A model generated the notes under the pieces. The model searched no databases. It was not told the origin of the DNA and was given only the letters and a program-made list of their open reading frames with translations. From Planctomycetota bacterium (GTDB lineage: Bacteria; Planctomycetota; J058), in assembly GCA_003695705.1 (NCBI GenBank), contig RFHU01000405.1:1-64000 (forward strand): DNA of 64,000 nucleotides, written 5' to 3'. Positions 1,049-30,793 of the stretch are shown here, one piece after another (positions within the stretch are counted from its first letter, which is position 1; each line of letters begins with the position of its first letter). The position numbers were made by a program, and so were the translations under genes.

Positions 1049-1741
1049 ATGGACCGCGCCATATCCGCCCCCCGGACGATCGCCCCCGAACTGCCCCCGA
1101 CGCCGGCGCCGGCACCGCGTCAGCCGCCGCGGCTGTCGCTGCGCAATCGCTACAGCCTGTTCGTCACGACCATGAAGGTGATCCTGCCGGCAACCGCGGC
1201 GGCCCTCATTCTTCTAGTCGTGGCGTGGCCGCACCTGACGGCCCAGCGCGAAGGGTTCCGCATCGACGTTGCCGATCTCGGCCTCGAACAGGCCAAGACC
1301 CTGAGCATGGTCAACGCCCGTTTCGACGGCATCGACGAGCGCAACCGGCCCTATACCATCACCGCCGACGTCGCGACCCAGTCCAGCAGCAACGAAAACC
1401 TGATCACGCTCGAAGCGCCCAAAGCGGACATCACCCTGGAAGACGGCGCGTGGCTGGCGCTGTCGGCGCGCGAAGGACGTTATGACCGGGGTCGCAACCG
1501 CCTGGAGCTGTCCGGCGAGGTCAGCCTGTTTCACGACAAGGGGTTCGAGATCCGCACCGAATCGGCCCGCATCGATCTAGCCCGCGGCACCGCCGAGGGA
1601 AGCGAGCCGGTCACCGGACACGGCGCGGCCGGATCGCTGGTTGGCAAGGGATTTCGCATTCTCGACCGCGGCCGCCGGATCATCGTTCTCGGCAAAAGCC
1701 GGCTGATTCTACTGCCCGGCGCCCAGGAAGCCGTGCGATGA
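1049..1741 (+). CDS. lptC: LPS export ABC transporter periplasmic protein LptC
   Basis: ATG at 1049 in frame of ORF 695..1741; single N-terminal TM then beta-rich LptC-like sequence; between kdsD and lptA. Confidence 0.85.
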   Translation: MDRAISAPRTIAPELPPTPAPAPRQPPRLSLRNRYSLFVTTMKVILPATAAALILLVVAWPHLTAQREGFRIDVADLGLEQAKTLSMVNARFDGIDERNRPYTITADVATQSSSNENLITLEAPKADITLEDGAWLALSAREGRYDRGRNRLELSGEVSLFHDKGFEIRTESARIDLARGTAEGSEPVTGHGAAGSLVGKGFRILDRGRRIIVLGKSRLILLPGAQEAVR

Positions 1742-3470: not shown

Positions 3471-3481
3471 GGTTTTCAGAC

Positions 3482-5026
3482 ATGGCGGTGTCACATCGGC
3501 TGGACCTGCGCCAGACCCAATCGCTTGTGATGACGCCACAGTTGCAGCAGGCGATCAAGCTGCTGCAACTTTCCAATGCCGAACTTGCCGCGTATCTGAA
3601 TGCCGAGGTCGAGCGCAACCCGCTGCTCGAGCGCATCGAATCCGACACCGACTCCTTTGCATCCGACTCCGGGCCTGAGACCGGCGGCGCGCCCGGCGAC
3701 GCGGGAGGCGAGGCCACCGGGTTCGATCTTCCCCCCGTGCCCGACAGCGCCGATCTGACCGCGGCGGCAACCATGCCGGATGCCGCCGATGCGCCGCTCG
3801 ATACCGATTACGACAACCTCTACGACGACGGCCCCGCCGATACCTGGCCCGACGACGCCTGGACCGGCGGCCCCGGCGGCGGCACGGGTGCGGGACACAC
3901 CGGGGATGAGGGCAGGCAGGGTATCGATCAGCAGGCGGCAGGGCCGATCAGCCTGCGCCAGCACCTTCTGGATCAGGTGCAGATCGACCTCGACGACCCG
4001 GCCGAGCGCCTGATCGCGGTGCACCTGATCGACATGCTCGACGACTGCGGTTACCTGGCCGGCGACCTGGCGGAACTGGCCGCGCAACTCGGCTGTTCGC
4101 CCGAGCACATCGAAGCGACGTTGCGCAAGGTGCAGCGCTTCGACCCGCCGGGCATCTTCGCCCGCTCCCTCAGTGAATGCCTGGCGTTGCAACTGGCCGA
4201 ACGCGACCGTCTCGACCCGGCGATGGCGGCGCTGCTCGACCACCTGCCGCTGGTCGCCGCGCGCGATTATCCGACGCTGTGCAAGGTGTGCGGCGTCGAC
4301 CGTGACGATCTGGCCGACATGTTGAACGAAATCCGCGCCCTCGATCCCAAGCCGGCGCAGACCTTCGACGGACGGGCGGCCGAACCGGTGATCCCCGACA
4401 TTCTGATGCGCGCCGCACCGGACGGCGGCTGGATCATCGAGCTCAACGGCGACACCCTGCCGCGGGTCCTGGTCAATACGCATTACCACGCCCACGTGGC
4501 AGCACGCGTGCGTACCAAGGCCGAACGCGACTATGTCAATCAGCAGTTCCAGTCGGCGAACTGGCTGGTACGTTCGCTGCATCAGCGCGCGACGACCATC
4601 ATCAAGGTCGCGACCGAAATCGTCCGTCAGCAGGACGCCTTCTTCCGCAAGGGAATCCGGCATCTCCGGCCGCTGACGCTGCGCGACATCGCCGAAGCCA
4701 TCGACATGCACGAATCGACGGTGAGCCGGGTGACCACCAACAAATACATGGCCACGCCGCGCGGCATGTTCGAACTGAAGTACTTCTTCACCGCCGCCAT
4801 CGCCGGCGCCGGCGGCGGCGCCCATTCGGCCGAGGCGGTGCGCCACCGCATCAAAGCGCTGATCGAGGCCGAAACCCCGGATGCAGTGCTGTCCGACGAT
4901 GCCCTAGTTGCACGTCTGCGGGCCGAAGGCATCGACATCGCCCGGCGCACCGTCGCCAAATATCGCGAAGCCATGCGCATCCCTTCGTCGGTTCAACGCC
5001 GACGCGACAAGAAACTGCACGCCTGA
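3482..5026 (+). CDS. rpoN: RNA polymerase sigma-54 factor
   Basis: N-terminal 'LRQTQSLVMTPQLQQAIKLLQLSNAEL' and C-terminal RpoN box 'ARRTVAKYREAMRIPSSVQRR'. Confidence 0.97.
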   Translation: MAVSHRLDLRQTQSLVMTPQLQQAIKLLQLSNAELAAYLNAEVERNPLLERIESDTDSFASDSGPETGGAPGDAGGEATGFDLPPVPDSADLTAAATMPDAADAPLDTDYDNLYDDGPADTWPDDAWTGGPGGGTGAGHTGDEGRQGIDQQAAGPISLRQHLLDQVQIDLDDPAERLIAVHLIDMLDDCGYLAGDLAELAAQLGCSPEHIEATLRKVQRFDPPGIFARSLSECLALQLAERDRLDPAMAALLDHLPLVAARDYPTLCKVCGVDRDDLADMLNEIRALDPKPAQTFDGRAAEPVIPDILMRAAPDGGWIIELNGDTLPRVLVNTHYHAHVAARVRTKAERDYVNQQFQSANWLVRSLHQRATTIIKVATEIVRQQDAFFRKGIRHLRPLTLRDIAEAIDMHESTVSRVTTNKYMATPRGMFELKYFFTAAIAGAGGGAHSAEAVRHRIKALIEAETPDAVLSDDALVARLRAEGIDIARRTVAKYREAMRIPSSVQRRRDKKLHA

Positions 5027-5095
5027 GGTGGCCCCGTATCTTTCGTCCGGCATCCGGCACCGGCGGCCTTTGCGCCCGCCCGCACCGGTCCCGGA

Positions 5096-6358
5096 TCAGG
5101 TACGCGCGACATCCGGCGCACGAGCGCCCGCGGCAAGACGGTTCATGGCCGCGTCGAGACGCTCAAGCAGGCCCGTCGACAGCTCGATGTTCCGGGCCGA
5201 TCCGGTGACGGCGGCTTCCGTATTGCTTTTGATGTCGCGGATATCGCCGATGATGTCCGACAGCCGTCCGAGGTGATCCGACAGGGTTTCGACCGTTGCC
5301 CGCCCGCGCGTGACCAACGCCTCGATGTTCTGTCCCGTCGTCTCGACCCGGTCCGCGTATCGACCGACGTTGGTCCGGGCCGTCGACATGGCTTCGCCGA
5401 GGCCGTCGATGCGCTCAACCAGATGATTCGCTCCTTGCGACAGATCGCCTGTCAACTGCGCGATGCGTTCGACGATCTCGCCGGTTTTCTGCGCCAGGGC
5501 TTTGACCTCCGTCGCAACGACCGCAAACCCGCGTCCGGCCTCGCCGGCCGCGGCGGCTTCGATGGTGGCGTTGAGGGCCAGCAGACGCGTCTGCCGGCCA
5601 ACGTCGGCAATATCGTGCGCAAAGGTGCGGATGTCACTTACATTGTGCTGGAACTGTTCCATCATCGCGTGCAGCGCAGCAGTGGTGGCCGCGCCGCGGT
5701 CCATGTCGCCGCGAATCCCGCCGAGTGCGTCGCGCAGTTCGACGATCAGGGTCTGCGCGTGTCCCAGACGCTCTTCGTCCTCGCGCATCTTGCGCTGCAC
5801 CTGTTCGATGTCCTGTGCCAGCGCTTCGGAGCGTTCGATCAGACGGCGGATGAAAAGGGCCCGCTCCTTGGAGGTCCGATTGACGCCCTGGGCATTGGCC
5901 CGGATGGTCTGCCCCCGCGCTTCGGCCTCACCAAGCAGCGCCGCCAGTTCCTCTGTCTGCCGCACGCCCGCGCCTGCGCCCACGCCGGGCGCCGTCCCGC
6001 AAACCGCGACGGCACCGGTGTCGGGAACCGGATCGAGGGCATCGATACCGGGAACATTGAGACCGGGGACATTGAGACCGGGCGCGCCCGCCTCGCCCGC
6101 CCGGATCCGTCGCCAGGCGTTGAGGAACGACGTCACGGTCGAAACCGAACAGGGGACAGCGAACGTCAGGAGAACCTTGGCCCAGTTGAGCGCCGCCGCA
6201 CCGGTAAACACCTCCCATTGATTAATGAGCGTCAGGATTGGCGCCACGATCCCCGCGATGACAAGCGCGGTGCGCACACTGGCGGGCGAAACGGCGCTGC
6301 GCAGGGCGGTGGCCCAGGCCGCCTCGCCGCAGAGGCCCCCGCGGAGGGTGAGAATCAT
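5096..6358 (-). CDS. Methyl-accepting chemotaxis protein with NrtS-like N-terminal membrane region
   Basis: Signalling hairpin '[36 protein letters not shown]'; N-terminus '[24 protein letters not shown]...[25 protein letters not shown]' resembles NrtS. Confidence 0.88.
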
Positions 6359-6864
6359 GTCCGCACTCCGTCACTTGTATGAATTTCGGCTCCCGATCGA
6401 CAGGAAAAATACTCAATAAGCACCATGCGTCCGCATGCTGTCGTATGTAATATGGCAGAAAAACTAAGCAGAAATTAATGCTTCATTTGACCGCGAAAAC
6501 ACTTATCCCATCCCGGATTCACGACTTTTTCGATCATATCTGCACAAATGGGATGAGAGGTCCTGGGAACTGCTGCGCTTCTTTTCGAAAGCAGCCTTCC
6601 CCGGACGGCTGAAAAATCCGGGCGACGGACGGGCGATGAAGTGGACTGGAAATACCCGGCTCCAGGCCTCATATGAAGAGGCTGCGGGCCGCAGGAACCG
6701 CGGATGCGGGCGGGGTATCGCATCCCGGGTGCGCGGGACACGGAGGGGTGTTTGTGTTGACTCGATCTGGGCCCGTCCCTAAGGTGCGCGCCGTCAATGA
6801 ACCGGCCCGCGAAGCCGGAACAGCCCGGAGGATTTCCGGCACAATCCTGGATCTAAGCACGAAC

Positions 6865-7473
6865 ATGCAACTGACCGTCAAGGGCAAGCAGCTCGACGTC
6901 GGGGACGCCTTGCGAACCCATGTCCGAGACGCCCTGTCGCACATTCTCGACAAATATTTCGGCTCCGCGATCGAAGCCACCGTCACCTTGTCGCGCGAAA
7001 AGCATCGCTACCGCACGGTGGTCGTCGCTCATGTCGGGCGCGGCATCCAACTGCACGCGCAAGGCGAGGCCGACTCCCCTTACCAGGCCTTCGATACCGC
7101 CGCCGACCATCTGGCCAAGCGGCTGCGGCGCTACAAACGGCGCCTGCGCGACCACCACAAGGAAGCCGCCGGTGCGGCCGAGGCGATGATCGCGCGGCAG
7201 TACATTCTGGCCGAACACGACGAGGCCGAACCAGCCGATGATGGTGGCGCCGATACCGATACCCGGGTGCCCGTGGTCGTCGCTGAAATGACGACGGAAA
7301 TCCCGTGGCTGAGCGTATCCGAGGCGGTCATGCGCATGGATCTGGCCGATCAGCCGGTGCTGCTGTTTCGCAACAGCGCCCACAACGGCCTCAACCTGGT
7401 GTATCGTCGTCCCGACGGCCACATCGGCTGGATTGATCCGCGCGGCAACCGCGACGATCAGCCGAAACCATAA
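6865..7473 (+). CDS. hpf: Ribosome hibernation promoting factor, long form
   Basis: 'MQLTVKGKQLDVGDALRTHVRDALSHILDKYF' plus C-terminal dimerisation-type domain; upstream of ptsN. Confidence 0.92.
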   Translation: MQLTVKGKQLDVGDALRTHVRDALSHILDKYFGSAIEATVTLSREKHRYRTVVVAHVGRGIQLHAQGEADSPYQAFDTAADHLAKRLRRYKRRLRDHHKEAAGAAEAMIARQYILAEHDEAEPADDGGADTDTRVPVVVAEMTTEIPWLSVSEAVMRMDLADQPVLLFRNSAHNGLNLVYRRPDGHIGWIDPRGNRDDQPKP

Positions 7474-7482
7474 AGGTTCGTC

Positions 7483-7947
7483 ATGGAACTTGCCGATCTC
7501 ATCGCCCCCGAGGCGATCGTTCCCCGGCTCAAGGTGTCCAGCAAGAAGCAGGCTCTTCAGGAGCTCGCCAAGCGCGCCGCACACCTGACCGGGTTGCCCG
7601 AACGCACCATCTTCGAGGTTCTGAGCGAACGCGAACGCCTGGGGACGACCGGCGTCGGCCATGGCGTCGCGATCCCGCATGGGAAGCTGCCGCAACTGCA
7701 GCGGCTGCACGCGCTGTTCGCACGTCTGGAAGCGCCGATCGACTTTGATGCCATCGACGAGCAGCCGGTCGATCTGATCTGCGTGCTTCTGGCTCCGGAG
7801 ACTGCCGGCGCCGATCACCTCAAGGCCCTGGCCCGGGTCTCACGCCTGCTGCGCGACCGGGCAATGTGTGAAAAACTGCGCGGTGCCGACAGCGCCGAGG
7901 CCATTCATGCGCTGATCAGCGAATCGGCGAAAAGCCACGCCGCCTGA
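7483..7947 (+). CDS. ptsN: PTS IIA-like nitrogen regulatory protein
   Basis: EIIA-Ntr motif 'RERLGTTGVGHGVAIPHGKLPQL'; directly after hpf. Confidence 0.95.
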   Translation: MELADLIAPEAIVPRLKVSSKKQALQELAKRAAHLTGLPERTIFEVLSERERLGTTGVGHGVAIPHGKLPQLQRLHALFARLEAPIDFDAIDEQPVDLICVLLAPETAGADHLKALARVSRLLRDRAMCEKLRGADSAEAIHALISESAKSHAA

Positions 7948-8079
7948 ACACGTCGCCCGGTTCTGTCTCGCGATTTGTGGATTCGTATCCGCACGCCCGG
8001 CCCGGCGGGCCGTCACCGCGCGGCCGGCCCGGGGGCTGACCGCCCGGATGCACCCGAAGGCGCCTCAGTGGCGGAGGCG

Positions 8080-13978: not shown

Positions 13979-14218
13979 TCAGGCCTCGCGGACGGGCTCC
14001 GACTTGCGCCGCACCTCGTAGAGGAGCGATGCGTCGAGCGGATACTCCCGCCCGTGCGCGTAGAGGCAGGTCTGGCCGGCGGGGTTCTTGCCGAGGGCCA
14101 CGAGCTCGCCGCGGGGGATGTGGTCGACGCACTGTCCGCCGGCGAACCAACCCTTCAGCCCGTAGAGGTCGCCCAAGAGGCGTCGCCGCTCGAGCGTCGC
14201 GATCTTCTCCTGTGCCAT
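13979..14218 (-). CDS. Small uncharacterised protein (79 aa)
   Basis: Reads in the same direction as, and just upstream-coordinate of, the FabI-like gene. Confidence 0.5.
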   Translation of the reverse strand: MAQEKIATLERRRLLGDLYGLKGWFAGGQCVDHIPRGELVALGKNPAGQTCLYAHGREYPLDASLLYEVRRKSEPVREA

Positions 14219-14240: not shown

Positions 14241-15080
14241 TCAGTCGATCCGCGTCGCTCGGGCCACGATGTCGTTGTCGAAGTAGTTGACCCGCATTCC
14301 CGCGTCGACGACCAGCCCCTGCGCGTTGATCCCGGACGAGCGGGGCGAGAGGAGGAAGGCGACCGCGTTGGCTACTTCCTCGGTGCGGAGGGCTTGTTTG
14401 CGCAGGGTGGCCTGCTCGGCGAACAGGTACTTGGGGACGTAGCCGGGGATGCCGGCGCTGGCGCTGGTCTTGAGCAGACCCGGGCGCACGGAGTTGAAGC
14501 GCACGCGCCCCAGGGCCGAGAAGCTCTTGGCCAGGAAGACCACGGTGGAGTCCAAGGCGGCCTTGACCGGCGCCATGTAGCCGTAGTTCTCGGCGGCCAT
14601 TTCGGTGGTCGAGATCGATACGGTGACCACCGAGGCGTCCGCGGCGAAGTGGGGGCGGAGGGCGTTGCTGACGGCGATCAGCGAGTAGCAGGAGATGTCG
14701 ACCGCCTGGAGGAAGTCCTCGCGCCGCGTCTCGTGGAAGGGCAGGGGACCTGCGGGGTAGTTGGCGAACGCGATCGAGTGCACCAGCCCGGCGAGGGGTT
14801 TCCCCCAGGATCGGCACTGCTCGCCTACCGCCGCCGCCAGCGCATCGATCTCCTCCTGCCGCTCCACGTCGCAGACCAGGAGGGGTTCGTCGGGGATCAA
14901 CTTCTTGCGCAGTTGCTCCACCCGCTGGGGAGAGCGGGCGGACCAGATCACGCGCGCACCTGCCTCGCGTAGGAGGCGACCCGTGTGGTAGGCGACGCTC
15001 TTGCGGTTCGCGACGCCCATGACCAGGACGGGCGCATCGGCGAGGCCGAGGAAGTCGAAGTTCACGGGCGGCTCACTCAC
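14241..15080 (-). CDS. Enoyl-[ACP] reductase (FabI-like SDR)
   Basis: '[26 protein letters not shown]', 'LVHSIAFAN', Y-x6-K in '[15 protein letters not shown]', '[19 protein letters not shown]'. Confidence 0.9.
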
Positions 15081-15519
15081 TGGGCTTCGGCGCGAGGGCG
15101 ACGGCGAAGGCGCTGGTCACCGCCACCTTTCCCGCGACGGCGGCCTTTCCGCTCAGGTGGTAGAGCTTGGAGAGGGCGTCGTCGAGCTGGACCTCGATGT
15201 CCAGGACGTCGCCCGGACGGACCATGGCGCGGAAGCGGGTGTCCTTGATGCGGGTCATGACGGGCAGCAGTCCGGCGGCCAACTCTTCGCGCGCTCGCTG
15301 GGCGAGGAGCAGAGCACCGCTCTGGAAGATCGCCTCGCACACCAAGACCCCCGGCGTGATGGGGAAGTCGGGGTAGTGCCCGCGGAAGACGTCGAGATCG
15401 GGATCGACGCGCTTGCGGGTCACGATGCGGTCTCCCTCGAGGGCGACGATCTCGTCGACCCAGAGGAAGGGGGGGCGGTGGGGGATGCCTTCGAGGACCC
15501 TCGGGTCGACGCCGCTCAC
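15073..15519 (-). CDS. 3-hydroxyacyl-ACP dehydratase, FabZ-like (GTG start)
   Basis: '[18 protein letters not shown]' (catalytic His) and '[28 protein letters not shown]' (catalytic Glu); C-terminus of ORF 15073..16500. Confidence 0.9.
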
Positions 15520-16964
15520 GCCTGCGCAAGCTCCGCGGTGCGCACTCCGTGGAGGTACTTCTCCACGTTGTGCGCCTGGATGACCCCGTAGTTCACGGTT
15601 CCCAGCCAGCCCGACATGATGATCCCCACCGAGCCGGCGTGGTAGAGCCCGGGGATCTGCTCGTGCAGGCCCATGCTGATCTCGAGCCCCTCGAACTTGG
15701 TCCCGAAGGAGGCGCCCCCCCAGTGCCGGGTGTAGCGCTTGAAGGTCCGCGGCGTGGCTGCCTCCTTCCATTCGATCTTCTCGCGGATGCCCGGCAGATA
15801 CTTCTCCTCGAGCACGCGGATGGTGTCTTCGATGAGTTCCTCCTTGGCGCGCCGGTATTCCTCCTCGGTATCGAACTGCCAGTCCTCCCACCAGGCATTG
15901 GTGGACGAGACGATGGCGGTCCGCTCGGGGGTCACCCCCGGGCGGATGGACGGGTAGTAGACCGAGAAGGTCCGCGACGTGGGCGGATGCGCGAGGAGGG
16001 CCTGGTAGTCGTAGACCGGGTGCGTGGAGGTGAACAGGAGGTCCCCGATGTTGGGGATGGTGGCCCCGTCGGCGAGCCCTAGGTAGACCTGCGTCGAGGA
16101 GTTGTTGAGGCGTACCTTGTCGACCTTGGCGATGAACTCGGGGCTGAAGTTCTCGTCGCCCACGAGCCCGTGGATGGTCTGCAGCAGGTTTGCGTTCGAC
16201 ACGACGGCCTTGGCGCGGATCTCCTTGCCGTTGACGACCACGCCGCGGCAGAGGCCTCCTTCGACGATGACCTGCTGAACGTCGGCGAGGATGCGGATGT
16301 CTACGCCGTTCTTCTCCAGCTCCGCCCGCATTAGCCGCAGGAGCTTGTCGGTTCCGCCTTGGTAGATGTAACAGCCCTTCGACATGAAGTTGCTGAACAC
16401 GATGCCGTAGCTGATCGCGGGATCCTCGGGAGTCGAGCCGTTGGCGTAGGTGATGGGCTCCATGAGGAAGCGCACCACGTCGTTGCGTCCGGGGAACCAC
16501 TTCTCGAACAGCTCTGCGGTGGTCATGTCGCTCCGGTCGTAGAAGTCCATTCCGCGGACTTCCTCGAAGAAGCCCTCCACCTTCTCCGGGGCGATGCGGA
16601 ACTCCTCGACCATCAGGCGGGTGAAATCCTGCCGGTCGAACTCGGTGGTGATCTGGTACTGGGGGTTTTCGAAGCGGATGCCGTGGACGCGGACGATGTC
16701 GTCGGCGATTTCCTTGCTCCAGTACTTGCGGCAGGCTTTCTTCATTCCGTAAGGGAAGCCGTGCAGCGAGATGTCGAAGATCCTCCGCCCGCGGCGGCGG
16801 AAGAAGGTCGCCAGACCACCGAGTTGGTAGTGATGCTCGCAGAGGAGCACCGAGTGTCCCGCGCGGCCCAGACGGTTGGCGGCGGTCAGCCCGGCGAGGC
16901 CCGAGCCGATGACGATGACGTCGTAGGCGGGCTGGACGCCCTTGAGGTGGTCGCGTGGTGCCAT
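15516..16964 (-). CDS. Phytoene desaturase/CrtI-like FAD-dependent oxidoreductase (copy 1)
   Basis: '[42 protein letters not shown]' FAD motif; C-terminal '[29 protein letters not shown]'; 4-bp overlap with FabZ-like gene. Confidence 0.88.
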
Positions 16965-16966
16965 GG

Positions 16967-18424
16967 TCAGCTCCCGGCCATGAGGACTCGAGCGTTGGCG
17001 ATGGAGATCCCAGAGAGCATGGCTCCCACGATCCCCAGGAAACCTTGGTCCGTCCCGCACACGTAGAGGCCCGCGACGGGTGTGCGTCCGCTGCGGACCT
17101 TCCGCGGCGAGCCGTAGACCGCGCCGTGGATCCGGTCGGTGAAGTGGTGGATGGTGGTGGGGGTGAAGACGTCGTCCGCGACGACGTGGGCGCGGAAGTC
17201 CCCGCCGAGGACCGAGGCGACCTTCTCCTGCTGTCGCTCCAGCCAGCGCCGCTTGGCGCTCGCGTAGGGCTCCGGCTTCTCCAGCGCAGCCCAGCGGTCG
17301 TAGTTGGCGATGGACGTTACCCGCAGGAGCCCCTCGGGCAGTGGCTTTGCGTGGGCGTAGTTGTTGGGGCAGCAGATGACCCCGGAGCGCAGGTCGCAGT
17401 CGTCGTCCGAGCGGCGGTAGTCGAAGCGGTCCGAGTCGTTGTAGAAGACGATGGTCTGCTCGATGCCGAGTTGCCGGGGCTCCGCATCGAGGACCATGAT
17501 CGACTCGACGAAGCTCATTCGTCCGGGCGGCGCCTCCTCGGACCGCGCGGTTCGGTCGTCGATCAGGGCGAGCGTCTCGGGGTAGCCCGCCGTGGAGAGG
17601 ACGACGGGAGCCTCGATGACCTCGCCAGGTTCGTCGGCCATCGCCAGGACCTCGGCGCGGCGGCGCCCCAGCTTGGTGACCCCCCGCGCCTTCTGGAGTT
17701 CGACGCCTACGGCGCGTCCCTTGCGGGTCAGGATCCTGCGCACGCCGCTGCGGAGACGCAGTTCGCCGCCTTCCTCTCGGAAGCGAGCGAGGAGCGCGTC
17801 GATCACGGTGCGTACTCCCCCCTCGGGGCGGGCGAAGCCCTCCTTGAAGATGCTCTTGAACATGATGCAGAACTGCCCGAACTCCATTTCGTTCTCTTCG
17901 GGCGAGCCGTAGTACATCAGCGGACAATAGAGCATGTCGATGAGGAGGGGGTCGGAGATGAACTCCTCCAGCACCGGCCGGGAGGGGATGGGGCGAGCGT
18001 CGAGAGAGAGCTCGTCGTGTTCCTCGATGCGCTCCACGAGCCGGTCGAAGCCTTCCCGTTGGGAGGGGAAGGTCTCGTGGACGCTCTGTCGGAAGTCCTC
18101 GAAGTCGTTCGCGAAGCGGAGGGTCACGCCCGGGAAGCGGATCTCCGAGCCGATCTGCGGGCAGAGCCGAAAGGCCTCGTAGGGGATGCGCAGCTGGCGG
18201 AGCAGCTTGGTCAGCGGCGCTCGCCGGGTCCCTCGCGGGACGTAGTTGGTCATTGCGTGGAGGCCGACGTCGAAGGGGCGCCCGTGGCGGTGGTAGTACG
18301 AATTCAGTCCGCCCGGCGCGTAGTGCCGCTCGAGGAGGAGTACCCTCCGGTCGTACATGGCCAGGCGGATGCCCGCGGCGAGGCCCGCCATGCCGGCGCC
18401 GATGATGATGACGTCGTAGTCCAT
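16967..18424 (-). CDS. Phytoene desaturase/CrtI-like FAD-dependent oxidoreductase (copy 2)
   Basis: '[58 protein letters not shown]', C-terminal '[26 protein letters not shown]'; 2-bp gap to copy 1. Confidence 0.88.
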
Positions 18425-18662
18425 GCTGTTTTGCGCCCGCGCGGCCGCCTGCGTTGCGGAACGGGGCCGCCGGAGCGAGACGCGCCGCCCCCGCTGGGAG
18501 CGAGGCGGAGCCTCTGCAGAACCGGCGGCTCTGGGGTTCCTGGCCGGGTCCCCGGACCCAAAGGTCTGCGGACGAAACGCCCCCGAGACCGCCTCCGCCC
18601 GCGGCGACGGGCGGAGGGCCTCGACCAGGCGCGGGCCGCGCGGCCTGCCCGCGGGCGAGGGG

Positions 18663-18920
18663 CTAGAGCTTGCCTTCGAGGAGCGGGCCGAGGTACTCGG
18701 TGCAGCTGTCGAGGGTGGCGAGCTTGGGGTAGGCCTCCTCGGGGACCTCGATGCCGTAGCGCTTGCGAAGCTCCATGACAATGTCGAGGAAGTCCATGCT
18801 GTCGAGGTCGAGCTGGTCCCGCAGCCGGACGTCGGGCTTGACGTCATCGAGGTCTTCGTCGGGGGCGATGGTGGCGATGATGTCGAGAACGACGGCCGCG
18901 ACGGAAGTGGAAGTCGACAC
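18663..18920 (-). CDS. Acyl carrier protein (GTG start)
   Basis: 85 aa; phosphopantetheine site 'DQLDLDSMDFLDIVMEL'; between KAS and CrtI-like genes. Confidence 0.9.
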   Translation of the reverse strand: MSTSTSVAAVVLDIIATIAPDEDLDDVKPDVRLRDQLDLDSMDFLDIVMELRKRYGIEVPEEAYPKLATLDSCTEYLGPLLEGKL

Positions 18921-18943
18921 GATTACACCTCTGAAGGAAGCGG

Positions 18944-20185
18944 TTAGGCGACGAAGCGGCGGACGACCACCGCCGAGTTGATCCCGAGCATCCCGAAGCT
19001 GTTGTTCAAGATGACGTCCACCTGCGGGACTTCCCGGGGCTCGCCGATCACGAGTCCGGGGAGCGCGCACTCGGGGTCGAGCTCGTCGACGTTGATGGTG
19101 GGATGAACGACCTTGTCCTCGAAGGAGGGCAGGTTCCCGGCCAACTCCAGCGCGCCTGCGGCGCCCATGCAGTGGCCGATGTAGCTCTTGGTGTTGTTGA
19201 CGTAGACCCCTTCCGCGTTGCCGAACACGGCGCGGACCGCGGCGCACTCCTTGATGTCGCCCTGGCGGGTCGCGGTGGCGTGGGTGCTGACGATGTCCAC
19301 GTCCCCGGGCTCGAGGCGCGCCCGCTCGAGGGCGAGCCGCATGCACTCCGCCTGGCGCTCCGAATTGGGGAGCACGGCGTCGGTGGCGTCGGAGTTCATG
19401 GCGTAGCCCACGATTTCGCCGAGGATGGGCGCGTCGCGGCGCCGGGCCTGCTCGAGAGTCTCCAGCACGTAGACGGCGCCCCCCTCGGAGACCACGATCC
19501 CGTTCCGGGCCATGTCGAAGGGGCGGGAGGCCTTGGCGGGGTCCTCGTGCTCGGCGAGGGCCCCTTGCGCCTTGAAGCTGGCGAAGATGCCGAAGGTGTG
19601 AATCGCTTCGGAGACTCCGCCGGCGAGGGCGACGTCGACTTCGCCGAGGCGGAGCATCTGCACGCCCTGGATCAAGCCGGCGTTTCCGGCCGCGCAGGCG
19701 GCGCCAATCGTGTAGTGCGGACCCGGGAGCCCCATGTTGATGGTGACTTCTCCGGCGGGGTTGTTCGCCACGGTCCGGGGGTTGTGATGGTGGGACCAGT
19801 ACTTCACCTCGTTGTTGTACTGGCCGAGGGAGTAGACCTCGTTCTCGGTCTCCACGTTGCCGTGCTCGGTGATGCCCAGGAACACGCCGATCCGCCGGCG
19901 GTCGACCTGCTCGAGGTCGAGGTCGGCGGCGCGCACGGCCTCCTGGCAGCAGTAGATGGAGACCGAGCCCGCCCGGGTCCCCTTGCGCAACTCCTTGCGC
20001 TTCTGATAGCGGGTTGCCTCGAAGCGGCAGATGCCGGCGAGGGTGGGCCCTACGTAGCGGATCTCGTAGGGCTGAACTCCCGAACGGCCCTCGAGGAGGG
20101 CGCCGCGAAATTCGGCGAGGGAGTCGCCGTTCGGGGCCGTCAGGCCGATTCCCGTGATGACGATGCGCTGCCGTGGGTCCTGCAT
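18944..20185 (-). CDS. Beta-ketoacyl-ACP synthase (KAS I/II, FabF-like, divergent)
   Basis: Cys in 'YTIGAACAAGNAG', His in 'THATATRQGD' and 'KSYIGHCMGAAGALE', C-terminal 'NNSFGMLGINSAVVVRR'. Confidence 0.92.
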   Translation of the reverse strand: MQDPRQRIVITGIGLTAPNGDSLAEFRGALLEGRSGVQPYEIRYVGPTLAGICRFEATRYQKRKELRKGTRAGSVSIYCCQEAVRAADLDLEQVDRRRIGVFLGITEHGNVETENEVYSLGQYNNEVKYWSHHHNPRTVANNPAGEVTINMGLPGPHYTIGAACAAGNAGLIQGVQMLRLGEVDVALAGGVSEAIHTFGIFASFKAQGALAEHEDPAKASRPFDMARNGIVVSEGGAVYVLETLEQARRRDAPILGEIVGYAMNSDATDAVLPNSERQAECMRLALERARLEPGDVDIVSTHATATRQGDIKECAAVRAVFGNAEGVYVNNTKSYIGHCMGAAGALELAGNLPSFEDKVVHPTINVDELDPECALPGLVIGEPREVPQVDVILNNSFGMLGINSAVVVRRFVA

Positions 20186-20485
20186 AAACCAGCCCCCCTC
20201 AACCGGATGGGGGAGCGCACTATCGCAAACGCAGGCCGCGGTGGCGAGTCTGATCTCTCCTTTGGACGGCGGCCGACCCGCCCGAGACCCCTCCGTGACG
20301 GACTTTGGACACGCGGTGACCTTGCGGCTTCGTCTTCGCCGGGCTCCTCGGACTCCGGGGGCCCGAGCCAGCGCTCCTGGAGCCGGACCGTCTGGAACCG
20401 GATGCCCCGAACCCCCAACAAAAACCGTCTGCTCGGACGAGCGCTCGTGCTAGACTCCCGCGCTTTCGCAGGGGGAAGACCAAGG
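20186..20485. promoter_or_regulatory. Divergent intergenic control region between KAS and oleA
   Basis: 300 bp between divergent starts; -10-like GATAGT at 20219-20224 (-) and TAGACT at 20451-20456 (+). Confidence 0.5.
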
Positions 20486-21541
20486 ATGCGCTACGAGAGC
20501 GTTTGTCTGGCCGGCTTCGGCTACGAGTTGCCGCCGCGGGTGGTCACCTCGCTGGCCATCGAGGACGCCTTGGCGCCGCTCTACCAGAAGCTCGACCTGC
20601 CGCCCGGGCGCCTCGAACTCATCAGCGGCGTCCGCGAGCGGCGCTTCTGGGAGGAGGGGACGACGCCGAGCAGCGTCAGCATTCGCACGGCCGGCGAGGC
20701 CATCGAACGCGCCGGCTTCCCCCGGGAGCGGATCGGCGCCTTGGTCCACACCTCCGTTTCCCGGGATTTCCTCGAGCCGGCCACGGCCAGCGTCGTGGCC
20801 GGGGCGCTCGACCTCCCGGCCGCCGCCTTGGTCTTCGACATCTCCAACGCCTGCCTCGGCTTCCTCGATGGGCTGGTCACCGTGGCCAACATGATCGAAC
20901 TCGGCCAGATCGAAGCCGGGGTGGTCGTCGCCACCGAGGCGGGAGAGGGCCTGGTCGACGCGACCATTGCGGACCTCAACGCCAAGGCCAGCAACGGCAT
21001 CTCGCGCAAGAGCATCAAGCCGGCCTTCGCTTCCCTGACCATCGGCTCCGGATCGGTCGCGGCGCTTCTTGCCCGGCGAGACGCGACCGCGCCGCGCCCG
21101 CGCCTCCTGGGCGGCGCTTTCCGCCAAGCCACCGAGCACAACGCGCTTTGCCGGAGTGCTCCCGATCAGGGCTTCGCCGGCGGCGCCCACCCGCTCATGG
21201 AGACCCGCTCCGAGAAGGTCCTCGAGCACGGTTGCGCCCTGGCCAACGAGACCTGGGTCGCCTTCAAGCGGGAATTGGGTTGGGACGAGACGACTCCGGA
21301 CGCGTTCTTCTGCCACCAGGTAGGGGCCGGCTACCGGCGGACCCTCTTCTCTTCGCTGGGGCTCGACCTCGAGCGAGACCAGCCGACCCTCGAGTTCCTG
21401 GGGAACATCGGCTCGGTCTCGCTGCCTTTGGGACTGGCCCTCGCCGAGCGTGACGGGCGCCTTCGCGCCGGAGACCGCCTGGCCTTGCTCGGCATCGGCA
21501 GCGGCCTCAATTGCATGATGCTCGGCGTGGAGTGGGCGTGA
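20486..21541 (+). CDS. oleA: OleA-type thiolase superfamily, acyl-CoA condensing enzyme
   Basis: 'HTSVSRDFLEPATASVVAGALDLPAAALVFDISNACLGFLDGL'; immediately followed by oleB, oleC and oleD homologues. Confidence 0.88.
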   Translation: MRYESVCLAGFGYELPPRVVTSLAIEDALAPLYQKLDLPPGRLELISGVRERRFWEEGTTPSSVSIRTAGEAIERAGFPRERIGALVHTSVSRDFLEPATASVVAGALDLPAAALVFDISNACLGFLDGLVTVANMIELGQIEAGVVVATEAGEGLVDATIADLNAKASNGISRKSIKPAFASLTIGSGSVAALLARRDATAPRPRLLGGAFRQATEHNALCRSAPDQGFAGGAHPLMETRSEKVLEHGCALANETWVAFKRELGWDETTPDAFFCHQVGAGYRRTLFSSLGLDLERDQPTLEFLGNIGSVSLPLGLALAERDGRLRAGDRLALLGIGSGLNCMMLGVEWA

Positions 21542-22446
21542 GTTTCGACCCCGCGTGCCTGGGAGAACTCTATCCCTGGACGCCGCTCCGCTTTCGCATG
21601 CGCAGCGGCCACGAGCTGAGCGCGTTGGACGTGGGGCCGCCCGACGCGCCCCCCATGCTCATGCTGCACGGGAACCCCACTTGGTCCTTCTACTACCGCA
21701 ACCTGGTCAAGGCCTTCGCGGGAGACTTCCGCTGCGTCGTCCCCGACCACATGGGTGCCGGCCTCTCGGACAAGCCCCAGCGCTATCCCTACACCCTTGC
21801 CCAGCACATCGAGAACGTGCAGGAGGTCACCGACCGACTCGTCCTGCGCGACGTCACCCTCGTCGTCCACGATTGGGGCGGTGCCATCGGCATGGGCTGG
21901 GCCGTGCGCAACCCCGAGCGCGTGCGGCGCATCGTCGTCCTCAACACCGCAGCCTTTCGTTCGCAGCGCATCCCCTTCAGCATCGACCTGTGTCGCCTGC
22001 CGGGCTTTGGCGCTCTCTGCATCCGCGGGCTCAACGCCTTCGCGCGCGCCGCCCTGGTGCGTGCCGCGACGACCCGCCTCCCCGAGGAGGTGCGCCGCGG
22101 CTACCTTGGCCCCTACGACTCGTGGGCCCATCGGGTGGGCCACCTGCGCTTCGTCCAAGACATCCCCATGCACCCGGGGATCCCCTCCTGGAAGACCTTG
22201 GTCGAGATCGAGGAGGGCCTCGCGGGCCTCCGCGAGCACCCCATGCTCATCTGCTGGGGAGGGCGCGACTTCTGCTTCGACGACCGCTTCCTCGCGGAGT
22301 GGCGCAGGCGCTTCCCCGAGGCCGAGGTGCATCGCTTCGCCGACGCGGGCCACTACGTTCTCGAGGACGCCGGCGAGCGCGTAGAGGCCGCTCTGCGCGC
22401 CTTCCTCCAGCGGACCGAGGCCCTCGCGGGGTCGGCAGATCGGTGA
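21538..22446 (+). CDS. oleB: OleB-type alpha/beta hydrolase (beta-lactone decarboxylase, haloalkane dehalogenase fold); start uncertain (21511 or 21538)
   Basis: 'LHGNPTWSFYYRNLVKAF', nucleophile motif 'VHDWGGAIGMGWA', C-terminal 'FADAGHYVLEDAGE'. Confidence 0.87.
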   Translation: MSFDPACLGELYPWTPLRFRMRSGHELSALDVGPPDAPPMLMLHGNPTWSFYYRNLVKAFAGDFRCVVPDHMGAGLSDKPQRYPYTLAQHIENVQEVTDRLVLRDVTLVVHDWGGAIGMGWAVRNPERVRRIVVLNTAAFRSQRIPFSIDLCRLPGFGALCIRGLNAFARAALVRAATTRLPEEVRRGYLGPYDSWAHRVGHLRFVQDIPMHPGIPSWKTLVEIEEGLAGLREHPMLICWGGRDFCFDDRFLAEWRRRFPEAEVHRFADAGHYVLEDAGERVEAALRAFLQRTEALAGSADR

Positions 22447-24137
22447 CCGAGACCCTGGCGCCCAGCGCCGCCTCCTCGGCTCGCCTGAACATCGCCCATC
22501 ACCTCCCGCGCCAGGCCGACGAGCGCCCCCACCAGCGCGCCCTCGTCGTCGCGCGAGGCCGCGGACGCGACGGACGCACGGCCTACGCGCAGCTGACCTT
22601 TGCCCAGCTCGATGCGCTCACCGACCGCACGGCCCACGCCTTGCGCTCGACGGGCGTCGAGCCGGGAGACCGGGTGCTCATCCTCGTCCGTCCTGGCTTC
22701 GAGCTCATCGCCTCCATCTACGCGGTGTTCAAGATCGGGGCGGTGGCCGTGTTCATCGATCCCGGCATGGGCCTCGGCCCCCTCGCCCGTTGCGTCGAGC
22801 GCATCGCGCCGCGCTGGTTCATCGGCGTCTCCCGAGCGCACCTCGCCTTGACCCTCTTCGGTCGCCGGGCCCTGCGCACCGTGCGGGGTCGGTTCTTGGT
22901 CGGCGGCGGTCCCGGGCTGGGCGCCATCGATCTCGACGCGCTCGCCGCTGCCTGTCCGCCGACTCCCTTTCCCCTCGCCCCGACCCGTGCCGACGACACC
23001 GCGGCCGTCCTGTTCACCAGCGGGAGCACCGGGCCGGCCAAGGGGGTGGTCTACGAGCACGGCATGTTCGACGCTCAGGTTCGCCAACTCCGAGCGGTCT
23101 ACGGCATCGAGCCGGGCGAGGTCGATCTGCCGGGCCTCCCCATCTTTGCGCTGTTCAGTGTGGCCCTCGGCGCGACCACGGTCTTCCCCGACATGGACCC
23201 CACGCGGCCCGCAGCCCTCGACCCGGCTCGCTGGGTGGAATTCGTCCAGGACCACGGGGTGACCTATTCCTTCGGTTCCCCGGCCATCTGGCGGCGGGTG
23301 GTTCGCCATTGCCAAGCGCGCGGCCTGCAGCTCCCCTCGCTGCGGCGTGTGCTGATGGCCGGCGCTCCCGTTCCTCCCTGGTTGCACGAGGCCCTCCTTG
23401 CCGACGTCCTGGCTCCGGGCGCCGACACGCACACCCCCTACGGGGCCACGGAGGCCCTGCCCGTGGCTTCCATCACCGGCCGTGATCTGGCCGACTCCTT
23501 CGCGCGCACCCGGCGCGGCGAAGGCATTTGCGTGGGCCAGCCCCTCCCCGAAGTGGAAGTACGCATCATCGCGGTCGACGACGGTCCGTTGGCTTCTTTC
23601 GACGACGCCCGCCTGCTCCCCCCCGGCGAGCGCGGCGAGGTGGTGGTGCACGGTCCCACGGTCACCAAGGCCTACTGCGAGTTGCCCGAGGCGACCGCCA
23701 CGGCGAAGCTCCGCGACGGGAAGGGGCGCGTGTGGCACCGCATGGGCGACGTGGGCTGCTTGGACGAGGACGGGCGCTTGTGGTTCTTCGGCCGCAAGGC
23801 GCATCGCGTCGTGACGGGCAGCGAGACCCTCTACCCGGTCGCGGTGGAGGCCATCTTCGACGAGCATCCCCGCGTCTTCCGCTCCGCCCTCATCGGGCTC
23901 GGCGACCGCCCCGCGCAACGGCCCGCGGTGGTCGTGCAGCCCGAGGAGGGCGCGTTCCCCGTTTCCCGCGCGGCGCGCGCCGCGTTCTGCGAGGAATTGC
24001 GTGCCCTTGGGGCGCGCTTTCCCCACACCGCAGAGATCGAGCGCTTCTTCTTCCACCGCGCGTTCCCCGTCGACCTGCGACACAACGCCAAGATCCGTCG
24101 CGGAGAGCTGGCCGCCTGGGCTGCGCGGCAGGGCTGA
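22443..24137 (+). CDS. oleC: OleC-type AMP-dependent synthetase (beta-lactone synthetase), GTG start
   Basis: 'AVLFTSGSTGPAKGVVYEHGMF', 'TPYGATEALPVASI', 'WHRMGDVGCLDEDGRLWFFGRKAHRV', 'DLRHNAKIRRGEL'; ATGA-type 4-bp overlap with oleB. Confidence 0.9.
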   Translation: MTETLAPSAASSARLNIAHHLPRQADERPHQRALVVARGRGRDGRTAYAQLTFAQLDALTDRTAHALRSTGVEPGDRVLILVRPGFELIASIYAVFKIGAVAVFIDPGMGLGPLARCVERIAPRWFIGVSRAHLALTLFGRRALRTVRGRFLVGGGPGLGAIDLDALAAACPPTPFPLAPTRADDTAAVLFTSGSTGPAKGVVYEHGMFDAQVRQLRAVYGIEPGEVDLPGLPIFALFSVALGATTVFPDMDPTRPAALDPARWVEFVQDHGVTYSFGSPAIWRRVVRHCQARGLQLPSLRRVLMAGAPVPPWLHEALLADVLAPGADTHTPYGATEALPVASITGRDLADSFARTRRGEGICVGQPLPEVEVRIIAVDDGPLASFDDARLLPPGERGEVVVHGPTVTKAYCELPEATATAKLRDGKGRVWHRMGDVGCLDEDGRLWFFGRKAHRVVTGSETLYPVAVEAIFDEHPRVFRSALIGLGDRPAQRPAVVVQPEEGAFPVSRAARAAFCEELRALGARFPHTAEIERFFFHRAFPVDLRHNAKIRRGELAAWAARQG

Positions 24138-24141
24138 GCCC

Positions 24142-25167
24142 ATGGCCCGGGCGTTGGTCACCGGCGGCGGAGGTTTCCTGGGGCGTGCCCTCTGCCTGCA
24201 GCTCCTCGCCGCCGGCGACGAGGTGGCCGTCTTCAGTCGCCGCCGTTTTCCCGACCTCGAGGAGCGTGGGGTCGAGTCCTTGCAGGGCGACCTGGCCGAC
24301 GCCAAGGCCGTGCGCGCGGCCTGTGCAGGACGCGAGGTGGTCTACCACGTGGCCGCCCTCGCCGGCGCCTGGGGCGACCCCGCTCGCTACGAGGCCACCA
24401 ACGTCATCGGCACGCGCAACGTCATCGCCGCCTGTCGTGCGGGCGGCGTTCCCAAGCTCGTGTTCACCAGCTCGCCCAGCGTCGTCGCGCCCCCGACCCC
24501 CCACGATCTGATCGACGCGGACGAGTCGACCCCTTATCCCGAGCGTACCCTCGCCGACTACCCCCGCACCAAGGCCTTGGCCGAGCGCGACGTGCTCGCA
24601 GCCAACGACCGGAAGCTCGCCACCTGCGCTCTCCGTCCGCACCTCATCCTCGGCCCCGGAGACCCGCACCTTCTCCCGCGCGTCTTCGCGCGCGCCCGCG
24701 CCGGCCGCCTGCGCATCGTCGGGGCGGGGACGAACCTCGTCGACTTCACCTACGTGGAGGACGCGGCGCGCGCCCATCGACTGGCGGCGGCTTGCCTCGA
24801 CCCGGGCGGTCCAGCGGCCGGTCGCGCGTACTTCATCACCCAAGGCGAACCTGTCGCCCTCTGGCCCTGGATCAACGGGTTGCTGGAGGCGGTCGGCCTC
24901 CCACCGGTCACCCGCCGCATTTCCCTTCGGGGGGCCATGCGCCTTGGGGGTGCGCTCGAGGCCACCTGGCGCTGGCTGCGACTCTCCGGCGAGCCTCCCA
25001 TGACGCGCTTCGTCGCCCTGCAGCTCGCCACCACGCACACCTTCTCCATTGCCGCGGCGCGACGCGACCTGCGCTACGAGCCCAGCCTGAGCATGGACGA
25101 GCTCACCGCTCTGCTCGCCGAACACTACGGCCGGGGACCCGGTCGCGCCGTCGCCCACGGCGGCTGA
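24142..25167 (+). CDS. oleD: OleD-type NAD(P)-dependent 2-alkyl-3-oxoalkanoate reductase (extended SDR)
   Basis: 'ALVTGGGGFLGRALCLQLLAAGDEV', 'YPRTKALAE' (Y-x3-K); last gene of oleABCD. Confidence 0.9.
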   Translation: MARALVTGGGGFLGRALCLQLLAAGDEVAVFSRRRFPDLEERGVESLQGDLADAKAVRAACAGREVVYHVAALAGAWGDPARYEATNVIGTRNVIAACRAGGVPKLVFTSSPSVVAPPTPHDLIDADESTPYPERTLADYPRTKALAERDVLAANDRKLATCALRPHLILGPGDPHLLPRVFARARAGRLRIVGAGTNLVDFTYVEDAARAHRLAAACLDPGGPAAGRAYFITQGEPVALWPWINGLLEAVGLPPVTRRISLRGAMRLGGALEATWRWLRLSGEPPMTRFVALQLATTHTFSIAAARRDLRYEPSLSMDELTALLAEHYGRGPGRAVAHGG

Positions 25168-28606: not shown

Positions 28607-30793
28607 TCAGTGCCCGCGCGCCTCCAGTTCTTCGTAGCCGACTTCGCCGACGAGCGAGCCTCCGAGGCGCGGAAGCCAGGCCCGCTCCTGGTAGCGGACC
28701 CGCACGGGGCGTCCCTCCTCCAGCCGGGCCGAGCCCTGGAGCTCGTAGCGCCGCGCCCAGGGAGGCAGCGGGCGGGCGGCCGCTCCCTCGACCAGGACCC
28801 GGCCCCGACGGAGTTCGAAGCGGAGCTCGACGGGGAGGTCGAGGCCGAGGAAGGGCGTGCGCAGGGTCTCCGTCCAGCGCGAGCCGGGGCGCGCGCCTGC
28901 GGGGGGCACGCAGTGGAGGACGAAGTCCAGGTCGCGCCGCAACGCCTCGTCCGTGAAGCCTTGCGCAACCAGCTTGGCGGTCTGTCCACCTCCAACCCGC
29001 TCTGGGGGGAGCGCCGGGAGGACCCGCTCGTCGCGGAGCCGCTCCACCCCCCGGCAAGAGAGTACGGCCCCGCGGCGGGGGTCGAGGAGGAGTTCGACGG
29101 CTTGGCCTTGAATGCCGCCGAGGGCGCTGAGTTGATCGGGGGCGTCGGGGTGCCAGCCGTCGTAGCGGAGCCGGGGTCCGACCCTCGCCAGGCCGAAGGC
29201 GAAGTCGACCATCAGCCGCTCGATGGTTGCCTCGAGGCGCGCGCCGTCCGGGCGCAGCTCGAGCACGACGAAGCGGTGGTCGGACTTCCAGGCGCCACGG
29301 CGCTGCGGCGGCGCGTCTCCGGGCGGCTGGTAGTCGGTGGTTCGCCAAAAGCGCCCTCGCCAGGAGTCCCCCGGTGCCAGGGCCCAACCGGCGCCTTGCG
29401 CGGGGGAGGCATCGCCCCGGGAGGTTCCGGAACCCCTCTCCGGAGGTGGCGGTTCTCGCTTCGGGAGGGGCTGCGCCGCTTCGGTCCCGGGCGCCGGCCG
29501 CGTCGGAGCGGGGGCCTTCGGCCCTCGGCCGAGGGCGAAGGCGAGGCCGCCGGCGACGAGTCCGGAGAGGGCCAGTCCGCCGAAGAGGAATTCGGGTCGG
29601 CGCACCCTCCGCACCGGCCGGTGCGCCCCGGATTGGGCCGCGCAGCGCACCGCGTCGACGAAGGCCCGCGCGCTCGGAAGGCGTTCGGACGGATCCTTGG
29701 CCAGGGCTCGCAGCACCACCGCGCCGAGGGCGGGGGGGACCTCGGGCCGGAGGGCGCACGGGTCGGGGGGCGGCGCGTTCACGACGGCCTCGAGGGTGGC
29801 CAAGGCCCCGCGGCCTGCGAAGGGCGGGCGGCCAGCGAGGGCGGCGAAGAGGAGGGCTCCGAGCCCGTAGACGTCGGCTCGTTCGTCGACCGCCTTGAGT
29901 CCCAAGGCCTGCTCGGGGGACAGGTAGCCGGGCGTCCCCAGCACGGCCCCGGTCCGGCTCAAGCGCTCGCGCTCGCTGCCGAGCGCGAGACCGAGCCCGA
30001 AGTCCACCAGGCGAGGCTCGCCGCGGTCGTCGAAGAGCACATTCTCCGGCTTGAGGTCGCGGTGCAGCACGCCGTGCTCGTGGGCGTGGGCCACTGCGGA
30101 GCCGAGGGCGCAGGCGAGCCGTGCCGCCGTGTCCACCGGGAGCGGCCCCTTCCGCAGTCGTTCTTCCAGCGACGGCCCGGGCAGCAGGTCCTGCACGAGG
30201 TAGGGGACCGGGCCGTCGAAGCGGGCCGAGTGCACCCGAACCACGTGCGGGTGGTCGAGGCGAGCGAGGTATTCTCCTTCGCGGCGGAAGCGGTGCAGCA
30301 GTTCGTCGTCCAGGGCCGCGTCCGCAAGGGCCAGGGTCTTGAGAGCGAAGCGTGCCCCGCCCGAGGTCGTGACCTCGTAGACGGTGCCCATGCCGCCTCG
30401 GCCGATGACCCGCCGCACCGTGTAGGGTCCCAGCCGCTGCCCCGGTCGCAGCTGCCCGCCCGTGAGGGCGAGCTGGGCGGTGACTTCCCCTCCCGCGGCA
30501 CCGCCGGCCGCGGACTCGCTCTCGACCCAGGTCGGGGTGCGCGCGCTCGGGCGCGCGGTCCGGGGCGCTGCTGCGGGCATCGAGCACGCGGCACGGGCTT
30601 CGGCCTCGGCGCGGCCGAGCTGCTCTTCGGGCAGCGCCTCCGCGGTACGCAAGACCGACGCCAAGGTCGCCGAAAGCCCCTGCCGGCGGCGACGTCCGAC
30701 CTCCGCGAGGCTCTGCCGGAGGCGCTCCTCGGAGAGGAGCCCGTCGCGTCGTAGGATCTGCGCCAGGGCCGCATCGCCGTCGTGGCACCGCAC
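28607..30793 (-). CDS. Serine/threonine protein kinase with C-terminal extracytoplasmic region (GTG start)
   Basis: 'VIGRGGMGTVYEVTTSGGARFALK', 'HEHGVLHRDLKPENVLF', 'DFGLGLALG', single TM 'FLFGGLALSGLVAGGLAFALG'. Confidence 0.9.
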   Translation of the reverse strand: MRCHDGDAALAQILRRDGLLSEERLRQSLAEVGRRRRQGLSATLASVLRTAEALPEEQLGRAEAEARAACSMPAAAPRTARPSARTPTWVESESAAGGAAGGEVTAQLALTGGQLRPGQRLGPYTVRRVIGRGGMGTVYEVTTSGGARFALKTLALADAALDDELLHRFRREGEYLARLDHPHVVRVHSARFDGPVPYLVQDLLPGPSLEERLRKGPLPVDTAARLACALGSAVAHAHEHGVLHRDLKPENVLFDDRGEPRLVDFGLGLALGSERERLSRTGAVLGTPGYLSPEQALGLKAVDERADVYGLGALLFAALAGRPPFAGRGALATLEAVVNAPPPDPCALRPEVPPALGAVVLRALAKDPSERLPSARAFVDAVRCAAQSGAHRPVRRVRRPEFLFGGLALSGLVAGGLAFALGRGPKAPAPTRPAPGTEAAQPLPKREPPPPERGSGTSRGDASPAQGAGWALAPGDSWRGRFWRTTDYQPPGDAPPQRRGAWKSDHRFVVLELRPDGARLEATIERLMVDFAFGLARVGPRLRYDGWHPDAPDQLSALGGIQGQAVELLLDPRRGAVLSCRGVERLRDERVLPALPPERVGGGQTAKLVAQGFTDEALRRDLDFVLHCVPPAGARPGSRWTETLRTPFLGLDLPVELRFELRRGRVLVEGAAARPLPPWARRYELQGSARLEEGRPVRVRYQERAWLPRLGGSLVGEVGYEELEARGH

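Follow-up and report, generated by a model that had tools for sequence, protein, structure and literature searches.

What do six genes for acyl-chain synthesis, two of them encoding CrtI-like flavoenzymes, contribute to a head-to-head olefin pathway encoded directly opposite them? This question is raised by ten genes at positions 14241-25167 of the window, by which we mean the whole 64,000-nucleotide stretch analyzed here (bases 1-64000 of contig C37; GenBank RFHU01000405.1) from a planctomycete metagenome-assembled genome (MAG) of 6.6 Mb, 564 contigs and 88% completeness. A minus arm, KAS-ACP-CrtI2-CrtI1-FabZ-FabI (ACP, acyl carrier protein), which we call the cassette, faces a plus arm, oleABCD, and 300 bp separate KAS from oleA. 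A preliminary description of the locus had suggested that the cassette builds a modified acyl chain for OleA; the coordinates, strands and families that it gave for the ten genes could all be verified. We propose, with a probability of about two in three, that the cassette is a type II system that supplies polyunsaturated acyl-ACP to OleA, yielding hydrocarbons of the hentriacontanonaene (C31:9) type. It would thereby do for OleA what the giant Pfa polyunsaturated fatty acid (PUFA) synthase does in other bacteria.

Association with OleA and exclusivity with Pfa

Far from being confined to this genome, as the preliminary description had considered possible, the cassette recurs across phyla. CrtI1 (73-77% identity) and neighbouring cassette genes are present in 6/6 genomes of the same family, and in three of these six OleA adjoins the cassette on the contig. 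A scan of the CrtI1 alignment against 84,980 species genomes yielded at least 572 confirmed candidates, of which 80 were kept. The CrtI1 family is conserved across phyla: among the matches listed are Rhodopirellula, Stieleria, Bythopirellula and Gimesia from the Planctomycetota, as well as Verrucomicrobiota (Opitutia) and MAGs labelled Nitrospinota, Nitrospirota, Chloroflexota, Bdellovibrionota and Deltaproteobacteria. The cassette stands beside ole genes in Planctomycetota, Verrucomicrobiota and MAGs labelled Chloroflexota, Nitrospirota and Bdellovibrionota, and it does so in several gene orders. The recurrent core is KAS-ACP-CrtI2-CrtI1-(FabG)-FabZ-FabI, FabG separating CrtI1 from FabZ in 23 of the 78 loci scored, while the position of the ole genes around this core varies (in several high-GC loci, where the simple gene caller picks shadow frames, tblastn calls were used). 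The ole genes are divergent from the cassette in the window and in loci L028 and L042; OleABCD lies upstream, with the cassette downstream of OleD, in L036 and L099; OleAB(C) follows the cassette in L039, L061, L091 and L106; and the cassette splits OleA from OleBC(D) in L143, L147 and L148. Since the linkage is kept in several gene orders, it does not just reflect an inherited order.

To quantify this association, we used a phyletic profile of 392 Planctomycetota genomes, in which OleA was called with NF006720. CrtI1 is found in 96 of them, CrtI2 in 97 and OleA in 145. The two CrtI-like proteins occur together in 95 genomes (of the 96 with CrtI1), and 94/96 CrtI1 genomes also have OleA, the two exceptions being MAGs listed as 80% and 61% complete; conversely, CrtI1 is absent from 51 OleA-positive and 245 OleA-negative genomes. 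In 37 of the 94 genomes with CrtI1 and OleA, the two lie within 10.3 kb of each other (~1e-58 under random placement, a figure that ignores shared ancestry); in 17 they share a contig at a distance of at least 150 kb, and in 40 they are on different contigs. This proximity and the recurrence of the cassette across phyla rule out a chance neighbourhood. Likewise, an ortholog of the cassette KAS, scoring 638-785 bits, is present in 35 of 38 CrtI-positive genomes tested and in none of 12 CrtI-negative genomes tested, whose scores do not exceed 281 bits; over all the genomes scored the distribution is bimodal, with 289 bits as the upper limit of its lower mode. Named loci gave access to 13 genomes; OleA is present in 11 of these, among them Rhodopirellula baltica, Stieleria, Bythopirellula and a Gimesia MAG, and PfaA above the cut-off in none. 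In genomes with scattered genes (R. baltica, G155, G306, G360), KAS, ACP and CrtI2 often stay joined, as do CrtI1 and FabZ in some. A near-obligate coupling of the cassette to OleA is therefore strongly supported, and the preliminary description was right to read the minus arm as a dedicated module for acyl chains that is linked in function to OleA.

The reverse holds for Pfa. We searched the same 392 genomes for PfaA with TIGR02813 and counted as PfaA-like any protein with a match from the KS N-terminus and more than 600 bits, together with G325, a split case. Such a protein is present in 47 of the 49 genomes with OleA but without CrtI, and in a single genome with both OleA and CrtI (G196), where it falls below the curated cut-off. 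We rejected G196 as a carrier of both systems, as its protein has the architecture NMO-KS-AT-KR, without tandem ACP and PS-DH domains. At the curated cut-off, 40 of the 49 OleA-positive, CrtI-negative genomes pass, as against 0 of 98 CrtI-positive genomes (p ~1.7e-34 for the exclusivity, again ignoring shared ancestry). The source MAG itself gave no TIGR02813 match at 1e-60 to the PfaA multidomain protein (KS-AT-tandem ACP-KR-DH).

The two systems also alternate between close relatives. CrtI1 is found in 12 families and Pfa with OleA in 23; the two overlap in f28 and f49 alone, each time in different genera. Pfa also accompanies OleA within the order of the window, in two families other than its own (G007, G009). 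When 57 OleAs were placed on a tree, the Pfa-linked ones, of which 20 were sampled, all fell into a single clade with a support of 100/100, and the CrtI-linked ones fell outside it. This swap of modules within f28 and f49, along with the genomes in which the genes are scattered, provides better arguments than the p values. The cassette may thus work like Pfa, but it is not Pfa. As a side observation on the OleA tree, genome G014 carries two divergent OleA-like genes on a long branch (locus L134, G014:C81:4081-5127 and 7428-8030) and has neither Pfa nor the CrtI cassette.

A putative route to polyunsaturated acyl chains

CrtI1 (482 aa, 15516..16964, minus strand) and CrtI2 (485 aa, 16967..18424, minus strand) are both FAD oxidoreductases of the CrtI/CRTISO type, identified by domain matches (Amino_oxidase and, at 3.9e-31, TIGR02730 for CrtI1), alignments, tree and AlphaFold models. 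On the tree each of them forms a monophyletic family of its own, distinct from the other, from carotenoid CrtI and from the CrtI-like proteins of anammox bacteria, although their long stems make the deep placement unsure. The models (pLDDT, the AlphaFold confidence score, of 88 for CrtI1 and 89 for CrtI2) have the CrtI-type FAD fold, which is shared with the carotenoid desaturases and isomerases CrtI, CrtD and CRTISO (4rep, 4dgk, 5mog). The carotenoid desaturase 4rep is the top PDB match of both; yet the identity over the structural alignment is just 16-17%, and the gene neighbours belong to fatty acid synthesis (FAS). In addition, both proteins miss the cut-off of the carotenoid model TIGR02730 (587) by a wide margin, with 108 bits for CrtI1 and 80 bits for CrtI2.

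We envisage the cassette as a dedicated synthase of discrete type II enzymes, with an ACP of its own to carry the growing chain, which would be unsaturated and most likely polyunsaturated. KAS would elongate, and FabG, FabZ and FabI would run the reductive cycle; FabG, which is part of the cassette in many relatives, is missing from that of the window and would presumably be provided by a housekeeping enzyme. In some cycles, CrtI1 and CrtI2 may fix double bonds on acyl-ACP, as enoyl isomerases or desaturases, so that these bonds escape reduction. Of the two chemistries, we prefer an enoyl-ACP isomerization that sets cis double bonds, because it would be redox-neutral and oxygen-independent. 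OleA would then join a pair of these chains head to head, for OleD, OleC and OleB to turn its product into a polyunsaturated olefin of the C31:9 type. The complementarity with Pfa points in this direction, as it implies that the cassette probably makes an unsaturated chain; the cassette is thus probably a second, uncharacterized route to polyunsaturated hydrocarbons where Pfa is missing. A broader proposition is that a discrete type II synthase, possibly oxygen-free and dedicated to OleA, makes up one more route to such chains, the third besides oxygen-dependent desaturases and Pfa, in which two new CrtI-like families set the cis bonds on acyl-ACP; this we consider evenly balanced.

Several points weigh against this interpretation. 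The nearest PDB relatives of CrtI1 and CrtI2 act on carotenoids, not on acyl chains; FabZ and FabI look ordinary, and the sequences would also be compatible with a saturated or monounsaturated chain. Moreover, the counts of co-occurrence are phylogenetically non-independent, and one origin per module would suffice to account for them. Finally, the host is an uncultured organism represented by a MAG, and DP2405 and DP2406 of Desulfotalea psychrophila (see below) are no more than candidate counterparts of CrtI2 and CrtI1.

Given the first of these points, CrtI1 and CrtI2 could act only once OleABCD has completed the C31 olefin, on which they would then work, with the rest of the cassette merely supplying the chain. 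There is a precedent in CrtI, which desaturates phytoene, itself a head-to-head condensed hydrocarbon, and the fold nearest to both proteins is that of the desaturase 4rep. However, in nearly all gene orders the CrtI genes lie inside the FAS run ACP-CrtI2-CrtI1-FabG/FabZ and not with oleBCD, and even genomes with scattered genes keep CrtI2 with KAS and ACP and, in some cases, CrtI1 with FabZ. This arrangement suggests that both enzymes act at the acyl-ACP stage and makes a late desaturation unlikely.

We assign a similarly low probability to a chain that is modified but not polyunsaturated, for example trans, conjugated or cyclized, and that ends up in a new hydrocarbon or ketone, the preliminary description having suggested an unusual one. 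The presence of two distinct, uncharacterized families of FAD enzymes would fit such a chemistry; yet the cassette contains no methyltransferase, a scan of its genes and their neighbours at 10736-32723 revealed no radical-SAM gene, and the complementarity with Pfa points to polyunsaturation. Of the modifications originally considered, unsaturation is therefore the probable one and cyclization is without support, while the evidence points to a known kind of product, a polyunsaturated hydrocarbon of the C31:9 type, made by a different synthase.

It is less likely still that the cassette constitutes a bulk anaerobic pathway for unsaturated fatty acids of membrane lipids, in replacement of FabA/FabB, on whose chains OleA merely draws. 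Its elongation set is nearly complete and could be independent of oxygen, and anaerobic PUFA synthesis has been proposed for similar clusters (PMC2649909). A bulk function would, however, be needed also by the OleA-positive and OleA-negative genomes without CrtI1, all of which must make membranes, and it would explain neither why the cassette occurs almost only with OleA nor why it excludes Pfa.

Gene arrangement in the window

The cassette begins at the shared control region of 300 bp (20186..20485), for which the preliminary description had estimated about the same length. No sigma-70 consensus promoters were found in it, this consensus being uninformative for planctomycetes. KAS (18944..20185, minus strand, 413 aa) is a FabF-like elongating ketosynthase of its own ortholog group (TIGR03150, 4.9e-92) with an intact Cys-His-His triad; it is followed after 23 bp by the dedicated ACP (18663..18920, minus strand, 85 aa; PF00550, 4.4e-09), which retains the DSM phosphopantetheine site. 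A spacer of 238 bp (18425..18662) separates ACP from CrtI2, which lies 2 bp from CrtI1. CrtI1 in turn overlaps by 4 bp with the gene for the FabZ-like 3-hydroxyacyl-ACP dehydratase (15073..15519, minus strand, 148 aa; PF07977, 2.6e-19; TIGR01750, 1.1e-31), whose catalytic His is kept. The final gene encodes a FabI-like enoyl-ACP reductase (14241..15065, minus strand, 274 aa; PF13561, 6.7e-53; NCBIfam FabI models) with an intact Y-x6-K motif; its distance to FabZ is 7 bp if it starts with the GTG at 15065, or an 8-bp overlap with the upstream GTG at 15080. The 'short gaps or overlaps' of the preliminary description thus apply to most junctions but pass over the 238-bp spacer. Directly 3' of FabI, on the same strand, lies a small open reading frame of 79 aa (window 13979-14218, minus strand) without a Pfam match, which is possibly the last gene of the operon.

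On the plus strand, OleA (20486..21541) is a thiolase well above the curated NF006720 cut-off (419.5 bits; cut-off 285) and matches the PDB OleA structure 3row at 3.8e-63; its Cys, Glu, His and Asn active-site motifs are kept (LEPATAS, NACL, CHQVG, GNIGS). OleB (21532..22446), a beta-lactone decarboxylase of the haloalkane-dehalogenase fold, is identified by PF00561, its HDWGG motif and its operon position, and overlaps with oleA by 10 bp and with oleC by 4 bp. OleC (22443..24137), an AMP-binding beta-lactone synthetase with the motif TSGSTGPAKG, passes the cut-off of the broader NF006754 (641 bits) and remains below that of the equivalog NF045786 (546 bits; cut-off 900). Likewise, OleD (24142..25167), a 2-alkyl-3-oxoalkanoate reductase located 4 bp downstream and with an intact YxxxK motif, scores 399.7 bits to NF042422, below its cut-off of 580. 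From their sequences, these genes form a complete OleABCD system, the predicted product being an olefin.

Other loci show variations on this arrangement. In two genera of family f26, the cassette FabZ has an in-frame insert in which REP-like palindromes lie on either side of an IS200/Y1 transposase-like (RAYT-type) domain, giving single open reading frames of 376 and 429 aa (L036:11914-13044 and L038:10292-11581, both plus strand). The palindromic repeat (peptide AGxxPALP) is inserted in frame at two more places in CrtI2 of L038. The same two loci have a MarR/HTH-like regulator between oleD and KAS (L036:6570-7172 and L038:4476-5084, both plus strand), a candidate for a local regulator of the cassette. 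In L100, from a MAG labelled Dehalococcoidales, the order is duplicated: OleA-KAS-ACP-OleA-KAS-CrtI2-CrtI1-FabG-FabZ-FabI.

The rest of the window begins with a conserved-looking run (3-7947, plus strand) of a SIS/CBS protein (KdsD-like), two small exported-type proteins, an ABC-type ATPase (by position), sigma-54 RpoN, the ribosome hibernation factor HPF and PTS EIIA. Three large serine/threonine protein kinases are encoded at 28607-30793 (minus strand), 43358-45571 (plus strand) and 55637-59437 (minus strand), and the right half contains several FHA, TPR and PDZ proteins. Rfam and tRNA scans of the 64-kb window gave no matches.

The cassette beside known lipid systems

The preliminary description had likened the cassette to the candidate ladderane clusters of anammox bacteria (kuste3603-3608, kuste3335-3352), with which it shares a combination of FabF, ACP, FabZ and CrtI-like genes. 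In our genome set, matches to PF18582 (hydrazine synthase alpha) point to f45 as the anammox family, an assignment that is probable, since this model also matches in other families. One f45-type genome, G095 (one contig), we take to be Kuenenia-like. Its FabF-FabF-CrtI-radical-SAM run agrees with the published order of kuste3605-3608. The ladderane clusters differ from the cassette in having their own radical-SAM genes and FabF paralogs whose active sites are altered. Furthermore, profile searches of the 392 genomes gave no match to OleA, CrtI1 or CrtI2 in f45, the KAS ortholog is missing from the four f45 genomes tested, and anammox CrtI-like genes reach at most 119 bits against the CrtI1 profile, compared with 389-895 bits for orthologs. 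With these orthologs missing, the CrtI families apart on the tree and no radical SAM in the cassette, we reject kinship to the ladderane clusters as highly improbable, despite the common gene types (PMC4790861, PMC2649909), and a widespread cassette can now be distinguished from clusters to which it bears a superficial likeness. As a separate observation on f45, G058, G112, G127 and G156 encode PfaA-like multidomain proteins of ~2.8-2.9 thousand aa (800-830 bits, below the cut-off) but no OleA, whereas G095 is without such a protein.

A further parallel, and indirect chemical support for our proposal, is found in D. psychrophila, which makes C31:8 and C31:9 without any PUFA polyketide synthase and has three phytoene-desaturase-like genes in type II FAS clusters (Rattray et al. 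2009, PMC2649909); DP1860, DP2405 and DP2406 belong to this type of cluster, the CrtI-like genes DP2405 and DP2406 being consecutively numbered. These clusters differ in including radical-SAM genes. An anaerobic PUFA extension of type II FAS was proposed from such genes, with no connection made to OleABCD, and C31:9 was also reported in Planctomycetes (PMC2649909). In the literature searched, we found no account of a CrtI-containing type II cassette joined to OleABCD, nor any mention that it and Pfa exclude each other. If our proposal is true, it answers the old question of how C31:9 is synthesized in bacteria without Pfa, such as D. psychrophila and planctomycetes, provides an alternative to Pfa in which small proteins make the polyunsaturated chains, and suggests where the polyunsaturated C31 biomarkers of many uncultured lineages come from. 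It also offers hypotheses on the function of two large uncharacterized CrtI-like families.

With the known head-to-head olefin pathway, the locus shares a complete oleABCD set with intact catalytic motifs. It differs in that OleC and OleD fall below the Xanthomonas/Shewanella equivalog cut-offs, that its OleA stands outside the Pfa-linked clade, and that the pathway is coupled to a dedicated type II acyl cassette, not to Pfa or to housekeeping FAS. The proposed functional counterpart is the Pfa-OleA system, in which Pfa (PfaA-E) delivers 16:4-ACP to OleA for the synthesis of C31:9 (PMC6463001, PMC4882568) and pfa-like types are linked to ole genes (Shulse and Allen 2011, PMC3098273). Both systems have a dedicated KS/ACP/DH/ER acyl supply to OleA, often beside ole, and among OleA genomes they are mutually exclusive alternatives. 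In place of the type I polyketide synthase, however, the cassette has discrete small proteins, and where Pfa has dehydratase/isomerase domains, it has two CrtI-like FAD enzymes.

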